NCBI GenBank assembly: GCA_024102795.1
Contig: JAGFJK010000144.1
Span: 1-64,000, forward strand
Direction of reading: 5' to 3'
Length of the DNA stretch: 64,000 nucleotides
Source of the DNA: Pirellulaceae bacterium
Lineage (GTDB): Bacteria > Planctomycetota > Planctomycetia > Pirellulales > Pirellulaceae
Shown here in pieces: positions 57,688-63,472 of the stretch; the first letter of the stretch is position 1; each line of letters starts with the position of its first letter. The notes beneath the pieces are model-generated. The model searched no databases. It was not told the origin of the DNA and was given only the letters and a program-made list of their open reading frames with translations. The translations under genes and the position numbers were made by a program.

Positions 57688-57712
57688 GGGAGCGGTCTCC
57701 TGTTCCAATGTT

Positions 57713-57732
57713 GTTCGGCAACATCCAATTAC
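57713..57732. repeat. 20-bp direct repeat, left copy, flanking VapBC
   Basis: gttcggcaacatccaattac, identical to 58581-58600. With the preceding bases it folds as atgttg-ttcgg-caacat. It sits 7 bp before the 3' end of the VapC gene. Confidence 0.8.
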
Positions 57733-57739
57733 GAGGCCT

Positions 57740-58126
57740 TCACCACAACCGGGTGACTCCGTATTGATCGAAAACCGGATCGTTGCTCACAAGAGTGACC
57801 TGTTCAACAATCGACTGGGCTACCAGAAGCCGGTCAAATGGATCACGGTGATGAAACGGAAGCGCTGCTTGCGCTCCAGCGTACTCGACTGTGATTGGCA
57901 GAACCGACAAGCGAAGCTGGGAAATCACCATCGACATCCAGTCTTCGTATGGCATCGATAGCGACAGCTTCCTCATTCCTAACTTGATGGCGATTTCCCA
58001 AATGGTGGCGGCACTCATAACTAGTTCGTTGGCGGGGGTCTGAAGCTCCACAACCGCCTGCGCGCTAAGGCGGGACGGATCATCAACCGCCCAGATCACG
58101 GCATGTGAATCGAGCAGCAGCCTCAC
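57740..58126 (-). CDS. vapC: VapC-type PIN ribonuclease toxin
   Basis: 128 residues from GTG 58126. PIN acidic residues: Asp 6 in LLLDSHAVIWA, Glu near 44 in ATIWEIAIK, Asp in HHRDPFDRLLVAQS and Asp in VSNDPVFDQYG. Family members cleave tRNA or rRNA. The GTGA overlap with the antitoxin stop gives coupled translation. All key residues are kept, unlike the PIN gene at 805-1260. Confidence 0.92.
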   Translation of the reverse strand: MRLLLDSHAVIWAVDDPSRLSAQAVVELQTPANELVMSAATIWEIAIKLGMRKLSLSMPYEDWMSMVISQLRLSVLPITVEYAGAQAALPFHHRDPFDRLLVAQSIVEQVTLVSNDPVFDQYGVTRLW

Positions 58127-58353
58127 TGCATGTATTCCTTAAAGTCTTCCAGTGGACCATCGAAGTCGGCGGCCATGTACAACACCGTGCCACGCATCGT
58201 ACCCAACTGGCGCCGGGCCGCCGGCTGGACTGTGGAGACAAGTCGAGCCACGGGCAGATTGTTTTCCGTGATGATTACTTCCTCGCCAGGGTTGAGTTTG
58301 TGGATCAACTCCACCAGCCTGACCTGTGCTTCGTTGATGGGAACGGTCGTCAT
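58123..58353 (-). CDS. Phd/YefM-type antitoxin paired with VapC
   Basis: 76 residues from ATG 58353, behind GGAGGA. TVPINEAQVRLVELIHKLN is the DNA-binding Phd/YefM start, and GEEVIITENNLPVARLV the core beta-sheet. The last part (FDGPLEDFKEYM) is the short acidic segment that folds on the toxin. It represses its own promoter in known pairs. The longer in-frame extension to 58437 lacks family features. Confidence 0.9.
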   Translation of the reverse strand: MTTVPINEAQVRLVELIHKLNPGEEVIITENNLPVARLVSTVQPAARRQLGTMRGTVLYMAADFDGPLEDFKEYMQ

Positions 58354-58580
58354 CTGAATCCTCCAGACCGACATGGGAAATTCAAGCCTGTTGGTGCCGC
58401 CTGCCAGGAATTGCATTCTCAACGCGCCGACCGACACCCGTTGCCCGCCCTCTTTGCAGCCTAGGGCATCTCGGCCCGGATTGCAAACTGGGCGGATGTC
58501 GTCCTTGCGCCGTGGTCTTCACGCCACACGCCGGCCGCGACGGGTAAGATCGCGCGGATTTCCAGGATTCTTCCGTTGCA

Positions 58581-58600
58581 GTTCGGCAACATCCAATTAC
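58581..58600. repeat. 20-bp direct repeat, right copy
   Basis: gttcggcaacatccaattac, identical to 57713-57732. It also lies in a hairpin (gttgc-agttcg-gcaac). The VapBC pair and about 230 bp upstream of it (58354-58580, no gene seen) lie between the copies. Confidence 0.8.
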
Positions 58601-58728: not shown

Positions 58729-59337
58729 ATGAAACGTCGATTCCTGATTTTTCTGCCGGCGGTGCTGCTGCTGGCCGTGGCGGATGCCGGCCGTGCGGAC
58801 GAGCGTGCTCCGGGACAGGTGCCGGACGCCGCCCTGGCCGCCATGGGACTGTCCGGCATGCGGCCGGTTTCCGCGGCCGAGGGGCAGGCGATTCGCGGCA
58901 AGGGCTTCGGCCAGGGCTGGTCCGGCTACAACACGAACCAGGCGGTGACCGGCTTCAACTTCCAGTCCGATGCCGTCATCAAGCAGGGCGGCAAGAAGAA
59001 CGAGAACTACGCCGAGTTCGTGGCCAACGACACCGCCTCGGCCAAGATCTACCAGGGCGGCAAGGGCAACGTGAACGAGGCTCTGGTGAATTCCAATTTC
59101 GCCAGCACCGCCCAGATCAAACAGTCCGGCAAGTACAACCTGAATCGCGCGGGCGTGGCGTTCAACAGCTTCTCGGACGTGGTCGTGCGGCAGGGCGGCG
59201 TGAAGAGCGACAACATGACGTTGATCCAGGCGAACAGCAACAGTTTCGTCAAAGTCATGCAGGGCGGCTACGGTTCGTACAACCGGGCCTGGGCGTCGAA
59301 CAACAAGGGCAGCATCATCCACATCATTCAGCATTGA
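58729..59337 (+). CDS. Secreted curlin/Fap-like amyloid repeat protein
   Basis: 202 residues with a signal peptide (MKRRFLIFLPAVLLLAVADA). A conserved spacer LAAMGLSGMRPVSAAEGQ (about 36-53) is followed by five repeats of exactly 23 residues (83-197). At repeat position 4 there is always Q (with G mostly at 5-6), N or D at 11 in nearly all, and small or Asn-rich residues at 18-22; a sixth start, HIIQ, ends the protein. The pattern Q-x-G-x-x-N is that of curlin and Fap amyloid units, where stacked Gln/Asn form a beta solenoid. Next to it are a C39 peptidase and an outer-membrane transporter as in Fap operons. Fibre formation is inference. Confidence 0.75.
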   Translation: MKRRFLIFLPAVLLLAVADAGRADERAPGQVPDAALAAMGLSGMRPVSAAEGQAIRGKGFGQGWSGYNTNQAVTGFNFQSDAVIKQGGKKNENYAEFVANDTASAKIYQGGKGNVNEALVNSNFASTAQIKQSGKYNLNRAGVAFNSFSDVVVRQGGVKSDNMTLIQANSNSFVKVMQGGYGSYNRAWASNNKGSIIHIIQH

Positions 59338-59443
59338 TCAGTGGTTGGGTGGCAACGCGACGGTTCCGGCCGGCTGGCCCGCAGGTGGCGGAGTTCCGAG
59401 CTGCCTAGGCAGTTTTCTTCCAGACGATAAGGACTTGAGAATC

Positions 59444-59770
59444 ATGAAGCGGTGGATTCCTCTTGGCGTGGTGGTCGCGTTAGTGTTCCTGGGAACGGTT
59501 GTTTCGCGCGCTGACGGAGCGGAACCGAAGCGGGGCGAGAACGCCAGGGCGAGCGTCTCGAGCGACCTGCTGGCGCAGATGGGATTGTCCGGCATGCGGC
59601 CGGTTTCGGACCAGGAGGGGATGCGGGTCCGCGGCAAGGGGTTGACCTTCTACTCGGCGAACCTGGCCAGCGTTTACAACGTGAACTTCGCGGGAGTGTA
59701 TATCTTCCAGCGAACCCGCGTTTACTCGTCGTCCGGCATGTCGTCCTCGACCAAAGTCACGCTGCCGTAG
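59444..59770 (+). CDS. Short secreted protein sharing the MGLSGMRPVS spacer
   Basis: 108 residues from ATG 59444, 10 nt after AAGGA. Signal peptide MKRWIPLGVVVALVFLGTVV. LLAQMGLSGMRPVSDQEGMR is almost the same spacer as in the amyloid-like protein just upstream, followed by RGKG in both. The C-terminus (YSANLASVYNVNFAGVYIFQ) is Asn/Val/Tyr-rich with no Q-x-G repeats. It may be a nucleator, minor component or processing substrate of the same system. Family unknown. Confidence 0.72.
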   Translation: MKRWIPLGVVVALVFLGTVVSRADGAEPKRGENARASVSSDLLAQMGLSGMRPVSDQEGMRVRGKGLTFYSANLASVYNVNFAGVYIFQRTRVYSSSGMSSSTKVTLP

Positions 59771-59809
59771 CCGCGCGGGGCGGGCATGATTGCCCGCCCC
59801 AAGCGTGCT

Positions 59810-60574
59810 CTATCGGGGCCGCGTCAAATCACGCCGGATGACCTGCAGTTCCGGGCGCACCAGGCCGGTTTCCCAAGGCTGCGGCAGCAGCGGCGCGTCG
59901 GGCCGCAGGTCGGAACCCGGCTTGGCGATGACCAGCAGCACGCGGTCGGGCCACTGCCGGGCGAATTCGGAGACCGCCAGCCGCAAGTTGCCTCGCAGCG
60001 GGTCGGCCAGAAGGACCCGGTCGCCGGCCAACCCGCGCAGCACGACGAAGTGTTCGTGGCCCTGCGTCTGGATGCGGACGATCACGGGAACCTTCAGCTC
60101 GGTCAGCCGGCCAAGCTCCTGGCGGCCCAGCGACGCCGCGTAGCCCCGGCGGACCGCCACGTTCCTCAGGTCGGTCATCGAGAGGCCGTTCTCCACGCGG
60201 TCGCGCAACTGGACCGGAGTCAACGTCGCCAGGATCGCCTCCAGGAACCAGGCTTCGTCCACGTCGTCGCCCCAGTAGTATCGCGCCACGGTGGCCAGCG
60301 CGGCGGCGCCGCACGAGTAGTCGGTCTGTTGCATCACGACATGGCGTTCGCGGAGCGCCTTCCAGTGTTCGACGCGCGCCGCGAACTGGCGGTTGTTGTC
60401 GCGGACGGGCGGACCCCAGGGGTTCGACCTGGCTTCGGCGGATGGCGCCGCCGAAGCGGATGGCGGCGTCCCGGTGGATGGTGGGGGCGCGGTGGATGGT
60501 GGAGGCGCGGCCTGGCCAGAGATCGGGACCAGCAGCCAGCAGCCGATCAGGATCGCCCGGCGGACGCCGATCAT
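59810..60574 (-). CDS. C39-family cysteine peptidase (FapD-like)
   Basis: 254 residues with signal peptide (MIGVRRAILIGCWLLVPISG) and a Pro/Ser-rich linker (about 24-50). C39 catalytic residues are Cys in MQQTDYSCGAAALATVARYY, His in GHEHFVVLRGL and Asp in LLADPLRG. C39 domains process bacteriocins; in Pseudomonas Fap systems FapD is such a protein and is needed for fibre export. It overlaps the transporter gene by 4 bp (ATGA) and converges on the amyloid-like genes. Confidence 0.88.
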   Translation of the reverse strand: MIGVRRAILIGCWLLVPISGQAAPPPSTAPPPSTGTPPSASAAPSAEARSNPWGPPVRDNNRQFAARVEHWKALRERHVVMQQTDYSCGAAALATVARYYWGDDVDEAWFLEAILATLTPVQLRDRVENGLSMTDLRNVAVRRGYAASLGRQELGRLTELKVPVIVRIQTQGHEHFVVLRGLAGDRVLLADPLRGNLRLAVSEFARQWPDRVLLVIAKPGSDLRPDAPLLPQPWETGLVRPELQVIRRDLTRPR

Positions 60575-61758
60575 GGTCGTGCTCCGCCGCCTGCCTTGGA
60601 CGATCCGAAGCGCGTCACGATCACTCCCAGCTCCACGTTGGTCGCATCGGGCGTGACACCGAAGATCACGAACGGCTCCACGATCTTCTTCTTGGCTGGC
60701 GTCACGCTGGTCAGGGCCAGCCGCACTCGGACCGGTTCCAGCAACGAACCAGGCAGTCCGCGGCCGTCGATCTCGGTTTCGGTAATCACCGAACCCAGCA
60801 CGGCGCCGCTGAGCGTGACGCGGTCGTTAATCGCCAACCCCACGCCCAACTGGTAGGTGATCTCGTCGCCCGGATCCACCCAGACGCCGGAGACTTTCCG
60901 CTGGAACTGCAGGCGGTATCCCGCTCCATAGAACACAATCACCGGGTCGTAGCTGTGGATCAGCCGCAGGTCGGCCAGCCCGCTCCAGAATCCGGAACCC
61001 AGGCTGGCGTCGTTGAGCGACGGCCCGAACGCATCGTTGCCGCTGGGCGCGACCATGCCCAGCGTGAGCACGATGTCGGGCGCGCCGCCCGAACCGGGCT
61101 CCACCAGCACGTTCACTCCCGCGCTGACGTCGCCGATCCCGCCGACGTTCCGCGAGGTGTCGAATTCCGGACTGGCCAACTCGGTCTGCCCCCAGCCCAC
61201 AGGCGCGTTGACAAAGGCCTGGATCGACGGCGTGATGCCGAATCGAACGGCGAAAGGTACCACCAGCGTGCGCCTCCGGATACGCGTGTTGTCCAGCAGA
61301 TTGTTGGACAGCACGGTCGGCAGCAGCGTATCGTCCACCGCGTAGGTCAGACCCAGATCGAACTGCCATTGTCCGGGCGACAGCAGCACGGTCCCCTCGC
61401 GGAGGAACTGCAGGCTGAAGTCCTCCGGCGCCGGGCCCAGCGTGGGCGGCGCTTCCGGCGGCGCGTCGGGGCCACGGTCAGCGGCGTCCGATGATTCGGG
61501 TTGTGTAAGCTGGGAAAGCCGCGGCGACCATTCGGAATCCAGAAGAACTGACGACTGTAACGGTAGATCCCAAGGGGCAATCGGAGGTGGCGGCGGGGAA
61601 AACGTCAGCGGGCCCGCGACGGGAGGCAGACGAAAGATTACCGGTTGTGCGGATCGAAGGGATTGTGCGGCCAGCGGCCGCGCAACTGCGCAGAAGAGGA
61701 TGGGAATAACGAGCAGCCACGCGGTCCGCGTGGCTGGCGGGTGTCGCATCCGCAGCAT
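60571..61758 (-). CDS. Outer-membrane transporter-like protein (FapF-like candidate)
   Basis: 395 residues from ATG 61758, 8 nt after GGAG. Signal peptide TAWLLVIPILFCAVARPLAA. A Pro-rich linker (about 75-110) leads into a beta-barrel-like part with alternating strands: QWQFDLGLTYAVDDTLLPT, TLVVPFAVRFGITPSIQAF, EITYQLGVGLAINDRVTLSG, and the last strand ending ELGVIVTRFG. Resembles 'transporter'/FapF-type 12-strand barrels. Coupled with the C39 peptidase, so it probably exports the amyloid-like proteins; this is inference. Confidence 0.75.
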   Translation of the reverse strand: MLRMRHPPATRTAWLLVIPILFCAVARPLAAQSLRSAQPVIFRLPPVAGPLTFSPPPPPIAPWDLPLQSSVLLDSEWSPRLSQLTQPESSDAADRGPDAPPEAPPTLGPAPEDFSLQFLREGTVLLSPGQWQFDLGLTYAVDDTLLPTVLSNNLLDNTRIRRRTLVVPFAVRFGITPSIQAFVNAPVGWGQTELASPEFDTSRNVGGIGDVSAGVNVLVEPGSGGAPDIVLTLGMVAPSGNDAFGPSLNDASLGSGFWSGLADLRLIHSYDPVIVFYGAGYRLQFQRKVSGVWVDPGDEITYQLGVGLAINDRVTLSGAVLGSVITETEIDGRGLPGSLLEPVRVRLALTSVTPAKKKIVEPFVIFGVTPDATNVELGVIVTRFGSSKAGGGARP

Positions 61759-62299: not shown

Positions 62300-63472
62300 A
62301 TGGATGCGCGTCGTAGGACAGTTTATTGCATGGCGAGCCTGCTGCTCGTGTTCGCCGCGGCGGCGCCGACCAGCGCAGCGCCTCCGGGCCTGAGCCAGGG
62401 GTATCCTCCCATCGGCCTGTACGGCGGATCGGACGTGCACACGGGCGACCTCAGCGATTGGCGGCTGGCTTCCGCTCAGTCGGAGTCGGCAGCGGCGGAC
62501 GCAGTGGGCGCGGCCGCGTGCGACTCGTGCCTGTGCGGCGACTGCTGCTGCAAACCGTGGCACGTGGTCACCGGTGTGGAAGCCACGTTTCTGCATCCCC
62601 AAGTGCAGGACACGCCCCTGTATCACTTGACACCGATCGGGCTGGAGATCACCAGCCGGCTGGCGAGCCTGGACGACTACTACGCCGCTCCGCGCGTCTG
62701 GCTGGGTTGGCAGCACCAGTCGGGTCACGGGGTGCGAGCCCGCTACTGGGACTTCGAGGCGAGCGCCTGGAACTACGATGCGTTCCTGGTGCCGCTGGCG
62801 CCGGAATTCTTCGATATCGGCAGCTACAACGCCACGAACAAGCTGGAAGCGTACACGATCGACCTGGAGTATACGCGGCGGTTCTGCTTCCAGCGCTGGC
62901 AGATGCTGGGCAGCATCGGCGCGCGGCATGCCAAGCTGGACCGGGCCGAAATGCTCAATTCGCTGACCACCGATCTGATCTCCGGGCCGACGCCGCTGGG
63001 AGTCACCAGCCAGATCATTTCCGAACGGCAAATGAGCGGCACGGGTCTGACGCTGGGGCTGGAAGCGATCCGACCGCTGAACCACTGGAATCTGAACCTG
63101 TTCTGCAGCGGCCGCGGCTCGGCTCTCTGGGGCGACAACCGGTCCACCAACCTGTCGACGATGTACATCGCGCCGGCCGGTCTGGGACCCGGTGCGATCT
63201 CGACCGCCAACGTCCTGCTGTTGGACGATCAGGATACGATGTATATCCTGGAGTTCCAGGTGGGCGTCGAATGGCGTTGCCCGCTGAAGTGCATTTGCGC
63301 CGAGATGTTCATTCGGGCGGCGTTTGAATACCAATACTGGGACGTCGAAGAGGTGTCGGGCGATTACCTGACGCAGGTGGTGCTGGATGTCGATCCCATC
63401 AATTTTGGCGAGACGCGGGATCTGCGAGCCCAGTTCACGGGGCTGGCCTTCGCCATCGGCATCGCCTGGTAA
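62300..63472 (+). CDS. BBP7/Lpg1974-type outer-membrane beta-barrel protein
   Basis: 390 residues. Signal peptide-like start (YCMASLLLVFAAAAPTSAAP). A Cys-rich stretch CDSCLCGDCCCKPWHV (about 75-90) precedes the barrel, a known planctomycete feature. The barrel signatures are WHVVTGVEATFLHPQ, APRVWLGWQHQSGHGVRARY, NKLEAYTIDLEYTRRF, MLGSIGARHAKLDRAE and the last strand TGLAFAIGIAW. The aromatic end fits BAM-dependent insertion. Role probably structural or as a porin; not specified. Confidence 0.85.
   Translation: MDARRRTVYCMASLLLVFAAAAPTSAAPPGLSQGYPPIGLYGGSDVHTGDLSDWRLASAQSESAAADAVGAAACDSCLCGDCCCKPWHVVTGVEATFLHPQVQDTPLYHLTPIGLEITSRLASLDDYYAAPRVWLGWQHQSGHGVRARYWDFEASAWNYDAFLVPLAPEFFDIGSYNATNKLEAYTIDLEYTRRFCFQRWQMLGSIGARHAKLDRAEMLNSLTTDLISGPTPLGVTSQIISERQMSGTGLTLGLEAIRPLNHWNLNLFCSGRGSALWGDNRSTNLSTMYIAPAGLGPGAISTANVLLLDDQDTMYILEFQVGVEWRCPLKCICAEMFIRAAFEYQYWDVEEVSGDYLTQVVLDVDPINFGETRDLRAQFTGLAFAIGIAW

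Follow-up and report, generated by a model that had tools for sequence, protein, structure and literature searches.

In the Fap system of Pseudomonas (fapABCDEF), the periplasmic peptidase FapD and its active cysteine are needed for the secretion of FapC, and the target of FapD was given as unknown (Rouse 2017, PMC5557850). This target is stated to be unresolved, with FapE suspected, in the same paper and in the accessible parts of two others (PMC6173800, PMC12822426). Colocalised homologues of fapD and fapF were noted in five further phyla in 2018 (PMC6173800, accessible part), and Fap operons with FapB/C repeats are on record for several phyla, among which the available part of the text does not name Planctomycetota (PMC12822426). 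Here we describe a locus of a Pirellulaceae bacterium that lies in the first 64,000 nucleotides of contig JAGFJK010000144.1 (assembly GCA_024102795.1); this whole stretch was analysed and is called the window. The locus encodes a secreted protein with 23-residue repeats (cargo 1), a short secreted companion (cargo 2), a C39 peptidase, an outer-membrane barrel and a second outer-membrane-type protein (OMP2). We consider, with a probability of about two in three, that it is an export module related to Fap, the substrate of which is curlin-like. The original prediction, made from the sequence of the window, had placed the first four of these genes together, and all four were found so (Table 1); it had overlooked OMP2 and a leader common to both secreted proteins.

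Comparison with Fap, curli and related systems

The peptidase matched Pfam Peptidase_C39 (E=1.6e-19), and its best match in NCBIfam was FapD (E=4.7e-25), followed by FilB. FapD was matched by 12/12 members of the peptidase family, and Q81, C87, H174 and D190 were invariant in the 12-member alignment. The barrel matched NCBIfam FapF (E=2.1e-8) and Pfam Phenol_MetA_deg (E=8e-7). When the single barrel sequence was searched against the PDB, FapF was found (E=5.4e-7); the profile of the barrel family gave FapF with E=4.7e-32 and no other solved structure, and NCBIfam FapF matched 21 of 22 family members. Furthermore, the barrel gene adjoins the C39 gene on the same strand at 40 of 46 C39 loci. These results bear out the earlier description of peptidase and transporter as Fap-like. 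The case named as speaking against it was a phenol-type barrel unconnected to C39; because the closest solved relative of the barrel is FapF, the Phenol_MetA_deg match does not amount to this case. The barrel was also considered as an autotransporter or a plain phenol-type porin, and both were rejected on the sole solved relative and the conserved C39 adjacency.

The locus has in common with Fap an exported FapD-related C39 peptidase adjoining a FapF-related barrel and a secreted, repeat-bearing substrate; an RG(G)-type site is also present on the FapE-position proteins of proteobacterial loci, as described below. However, neither FapB/FapC-type repeats nor FapA, FapE or the fapBCDEF operon was recognised at the window locus, and by inspection its barrel has a Pro-rich N-terminal linker where FapF has a coiled coil. 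The module also differs in its additional OMP2, in the leader on every cargo and in its gene order, and the 23-residue repeats match CsgA, not any Fap model, in NCBIfam.

With curli CsgA, cargo 1 shares 23-residue repeats of the form S-x-hydrophobic-x-hydrophobic-x-Q with a G-rich turn, five in number as in enterobacterial CsgA, and the two-strand curli unit described in the accessible part of PMC12822426 resembles the window repeat. On the other hand, the first turn of the window repeat is two residues longer, its second Q is not conserved, and the cargo has an extra leader. The Pfam curlin repeat model PF07012 gave no match at its curated threshold in cargo 1 or in the genome of the window. 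CsgG and CsgF were not found in this genome (97.6% complete) by a search that gave matches in the E. coli control. By the curated models, the locus is neither Fap nor curli.

Two other systems are close in composition. The nap island of Neisseria gonorrhoeae (NapP/NapF) likewise joins short cargos with double-glycine (GG) leaders, a C39 peptidase and a FapF-related channel, whereas its cargos are cationic microcin-like autolysis peptides, it has an additional regulator and other genes, and OMP2 and curlin repeats are not among the parts described in the accessible text (PMC11798529). The FilB and FilC models of NCBIfam (Acinetobacter Fil) match the peptidase and half of the compared barrels, but more weakly than FapD and FapF, and Fil is described as a putative pilus system. 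The fapD-fapF pairs of 2018 represent the same gene pair outside Proteobacteria; the accessible part of that report lists no phyla and names no cargos, leader or OMP2 (PMC6173800).

A leader common to the secreted proteins

Both secreted proteins of the window carry the segment LxxMGLSGMRPVSxxEGxxxRGKG, also written LxxMGLxGMxxVSDxEGxxVRGKG, after the signal peptide, and their leaders are 76% identical in DNA over 74 nt. Related planctomycete loci, found via the peptidase, mostly encode short secreted proteins in which the leader precedes unrelated mature bodies; the exceptions include locus L034, which lies on a short contig. A total of 84 cargo proteins at the related loci have the leader before unrelated Gly/Ala/Ser-rich bodies, and a Sec-like hydrophobic stretch lies upstream of the leader in 84/84. 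The alignment showed a V-R-G core (R in 81/83, G in 83/83), followed by a variable residue and then G. The mature bodies have a median length of 88, are composed of Gly/Ala/Ser to about 40%, and are free of Cys in 80 of the 84. The leader is the feature common to all loci; the repeats are not.

The leader profile (34 columns) and a C39 profile were compared in 397 genomes of the order. Leaders were detected in 34 genomes and C39 in 37; all 34 leader genomes were also C39 genomes, and neither was detected in 360. Among the three C39-only genomes, one had a weaker C39 match and two were incomplete, with the C39 gene on a short contig. The association was marked (Fisher p=4e-46, or 1.6e-37 without the eight genomes that had supplied alignment rows, both uncorrected for relatedness). 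Within single genera (for example g61, g19 and g324) leader and C39 were jointly present or absent, and among the sampled genomes of the order the pair occurs in six families. In a sample of 392 genomes of the phylum, the same five genomes held leader and C39; elsewhere in that sample two further leader matches were weak and partial (E about 0.002-0.003).

The leader fits the LSxxELxxIxGG register of double-glycine leaders with a variant V-R-G-x-G end; both this register and the link to a C39 gene are those of a C39 substrate. The leader might alternatively be a targeting or chaperone-binding segment that travels with the module, as it has Gly/Ala at position -7, where classical GG leaders mostly have a hydrophobic residue, and is variable directly after V-R-G. 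We regard this as very unlikely, given the hydrophobic, acidic and Gly register, the canonical RGG forms at the same genomic position in Proteobacteria and the invariant catalytic residues of the peptidase.

Many planctomycete cargos also end in a pattern like V-Y/F-A-G-G-F/Y-S/A-x-A-x-F/L (L129, L131, L138 and L140), which suggests a second conserved element, perhaps for assembly or anchoring.

Curlin-like repeats of cargo 1

The Q-G/S-G triplets of cargo 1 start at residues 86, 109, 132, 155 and 178, an exact period of 23 residues, and each repeat follows S-x-hydrophobic-x-hydrophobic-x-Q, a G-rich turn and N-x-A-x-hydrophobic. Five exact repeats had been predicted; their spacing is exact, but their sequences differ, with 6-10 of 23 residues in common between pairs. 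Self-similarity at lag 23 in the mature region was higher than in any of 20000 shuffles, and the best of lags 10-49 in 2000 shuffles never reached it. NCBIfam CsgA matched residues 86-199 with E=7.7e-7, and nine shuffled versions of the repeat region gave no comparable NCBIfam match. The earlier view that the repeats are closer to curlin is in line with this match, PF07012 notwithstanding.

The AlphaFold model of cargo 1 has two strands per repeat, but its confidence is low, with a mean predicted local distance difference test (pLDDT) score of 50. A PDB sequence search with the repeat protein gave a single chance-level match. In a periodicity test of the 84 cargos, only that of the window showed a clear tandem period. 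One weak relative of the repeat body among 347 genomes of the order was rejected since it runs antisense to an oxidoreductase-like gene. In cargo 2, a 35-nt stretch of the gene (59657-59691) is 60% identical to the cargo 1 repeat unit, and cargo 2 may contain one degenerate repeat.

Because the curlin-like body was found only here among the 347 genomes and CsgG and CsgF were not found, it seems that an exporter of Fap type here carries a substrate of curlin type. The predicted mixed or new amyloid export system holds to this extent, a curlin-like substrate with Fap-like machinery, but the cargos at other loci are not curlin-like; hence "amyloid export system" is safe solely as a hypothesis for the cargo of this genome.

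Composition of the module and nature of the cargos

Clustering of open reading frames (ORFs) at 60 loci and locus fragments gave four widely recurrent families: cargo, barrel, C39 and OMP2. The OMP2 family is present at 30 of the 60, often adjoining a cargo gene, and the genome of the window has one strong copy. Three of 14 OMP2 members weakly matched Legionella_OMP, and a PDB sequence search with OMP2 gave no relative. Other genes recurring at 4-6 loci were rejected as parts of the module, since they appear to reflect ordinary conservation of gene order, for the most part within one genus, or an ORF family on the antisense strand.

The conservation of OMP2 and its frequent place next to the cargo gene, together with the aromatic last residue of many cargos and the several cargos encoded per genome, would also suit non-amyloid surface proteins (adhesin, matrix or coat) that OMP2 holds at the outer membrane, the repeats then forming a monomeric beta-solenoid. 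The exactly spaced curlin-type Q/N ladders and the Fap-related machinery favour polymerisation instead, and no anchoring or sorting motif was identified in the cargos, so that we consider such surface proteins quite unlikely.

It is unlikely, although less so, that the module exports peptide effectors of the microcin or autolysis-peptide type, with the repeat protein as an unusual cargo. Planctomycete cargos are indeed short, Cys-poor and Gly/Ala/Ser-rich, and the gonococcal island pairs microcin-like peptides bearing GG leaders with the C39 peptidase NapP and the FapF-related NapF (PMC11798529, accessible text). At two Acinetobacter plasmid loci (L156 and L157), Sec signals and LSxQEMKDTQGA leaders precede Gly-rich bodies, and the small hydrophobic proteins encoded there could be immunity proteins. 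However, the ORF clustering gave no recurrent immunity-like family at the planctomycete loci, and a stretch hydrophobic enough for a membrane segment was present in just 2 of 84 mature cargos. Hydrophobicity separates the two kinds weakly, as the Acinetobacter and Vibrio peptides (1.06-1.32) are also below the threshold; the two cargos of the window scored 0.45 and 0.82. The curlin-type S-x-hydrophobic-x-hydrophobic-x-Q strands of the window cargo, as a solenoid would have, also argue against effector export.

An R-G site at proteobacterial Fap-type loci

For comparison, records of a plasmid collection that hold FapD-like peptidases were used. C39 loci with FapF-like barrels were present in Aeromonas, Cupriavidus, Polymorphobacter, Croceicoccus, Vibrio and Photobacterium. 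The FapE-position protein, encoded next to the peptidase, carries [ST/A]xxxLxxxRG(G/R) in 6/6 readable cases (L148 and L150-L154), the sites being LADGELAHLRGR, ITDYELATMRGG, LSEEVLARQRGG, LSNSSLEEYRGG, VAQARLDKQRGG and LTDDEMSSLRGG. The motif was also observed on further short secreted proteins at the proteobacterial C39/FapF loci and was missing at locus L155, which has no recognised barrel. Its background rate was 11/481 ORFs; as the motif was first spotted in these same sequences, it is a lead with a background rate and not an independent test. FapE or the FapF linker has been suspected as the place where FapD acts (PMC5557850; PMC12822426, accessible part), and the site on FapE-position proteins fits this suspicion.

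Two Cupriavidus barrels (L149:7865-9337 and L153:7847-9298) have an SxxxLARKRGG-type site between an N-terminal helical segment and the barrel, which would be expected if the peptidase also trims the transporter. Separately, at plasmid loci of Acinetobacter and Vibrio (L156:404-2033, L157:1447-5543 and L159:3376-5492), genes for a C39 peptidase and for small hydrophobic proteins accompany those of secreted peptides that are rich in Gly, resemble microcins and have a GG/GA-type leader behind a Sec signal. The FapF-like barrel is evident in Acinetobacter but only marginal in Vibrio; the loci possibly encode bacteriocins that are exported by an unusual route.

Proposed export route

The sequences show that the peptidase and the barrel are homologues of FapD and FapF, that the cargos share a leader which is inherited together with the peptidase, and that cargo 1 has a curlin-like repeat pattern; from this, we propose the following route. 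Both cargos would cross the inner membrane via Sec, and the exported C39 peptidase would recognise their leaders in the periplasm. It would probably cut them at the conserved V-R-G (x-G), which is a variant form of the double-glycine site, or immediately behind it. The mature chain, unfolded and without Cys, would then pass the outer membrane by way of the FapF-like barrel, perhaps with the aid of OMP2. Outside the cell, the five-repeat protein would stack as a curlin-like beta-solenoid fibre, for which the companion may be a nucleator, cap or anchor. The fibre step would rest on the curlin-like repeat pattern and the beta-strand-rich, low-confidence model.

Several results weigh against this route or its fibre step. 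The bit scores are low relative to the equivalog cut-offs: 88 against 330 for the peptidase with FapD, 33 against 700 for the barrel with FapF, and 29 against 160 for cargo 1 with CsgA. Since all are far below these cut-offs, the three proteins are relatives, not orthologues, by these models. The AlphaFold models of cargo 1 and the barrel are both poor (pLDDT 50 and 38), that of the barrel, built with three sequences, too poor to use. In a Foldseek search with the repeat model, the FapC fibril (E=0.2) and the CsgA fibril (E=0.6) ranked first and second, neither significantly. No family backs the curlin-like body, as no credible homologue was found in the 347 order genomes, and the cargos at other loci are mostly without tandem repeats. 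The exact cut position in the leader is a predicted one.

Judged by the openly available published papers searched, the leader of the planctomycetes and the fact that it is inherited together with the peptidase appear to be new. The same applies to the module of four genes that includes OMP2, to the curlin-like cargo and to the R-G site in common. The module suggests what a FapD-type protease, the target of which is unexplained, cuts. The leader is invariably accompanied by the peptidase and stays conserved in front of differing cargos, and FapE-position proteins have this R-G core too; the question of the FapD target can therefore be put directly to a cleavage test. Should the cargo form fibres, exporters like Fap and fibres like curlin would be interchangeable parts, and a fibre system related to Fap would exist in a phylum that the accessible parts of the surveys do not list as having Fap operons. 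As a tentative extension, which may well not hold in full, we propose both that a Fap-type exporter has taken over a fibre protein of curlin type, so that an amyloid subunit is made with a Sec leader followed by a C39 leader, and that FapD-type peptidases of different phyla generally recognise [ST]xxxLxxxRG(G/x), on FapE and some FapF linkers among others.

Locus layout and neighbouring genes

The features are listed in Table 1. The reading frame of the barrel shares 4 bases with the start of the C39 gene, and an in-frame start further upstream would extend the barrel gene to 61842. The hairpin between the convergent genes is possibly a two-way terminator, although a terminator scan did not pick it up.

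Table 1 Coordinates of the features of the locus in the window.
Feature	Position	Strand	Description
Cargo 1, secreted protein with curlin-like repeats	58729-59337	+	202 residues; Sec-type N-terminus, leader, five 23-residue repeats
Cargo 1 leader LAAMGLSGMRPVSAAEGQAIRGKG	58819-58920	+	Predicted C39 recognition and cleavage region; leader profile E=2.8e-16
Five tandem 23-residue repeats of cargo 1	58978-59322	+	Residues 84-198
Cargo 2, short secreted companion	59444-59770	+	108 residues; same leader type
Cargo 2 leader	59555-59650	+	Leader profile E=2.5e-17
GC-rich hairpin between convergent cargo and peptidase/barrel genes	59772-59805		15-nt arms, 87% complementary; 4-nt loop
FapD-type C39 peptidase	59810-60574	-	254 residues; hydrophobic N-terminus; NCBIfam FapD 88 bits
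FapF-like outer-membrane barrel	60571-61758	-	395 residues; Pro-rich N-terminal linker
OMP2, second conserved outer-membrane-type protein of the module	62300-63472	+	390 residues; just outside the interval originally noted (58729-61758)

Genes for a PIN-domain toxin and a Phd/YefM-type antitoxin lie at 57740-58437 on the minus strand. The pair is flanked by a 30-bp direct repeat (57703-57732 and 58571-58600, 87% identical). Because the 19-bp exact core of this repeat occurs genome-wide only at those two sites, the pair (57703-58600) is suggested to be an inserted cassette just upstream of the cargo 1 gene.

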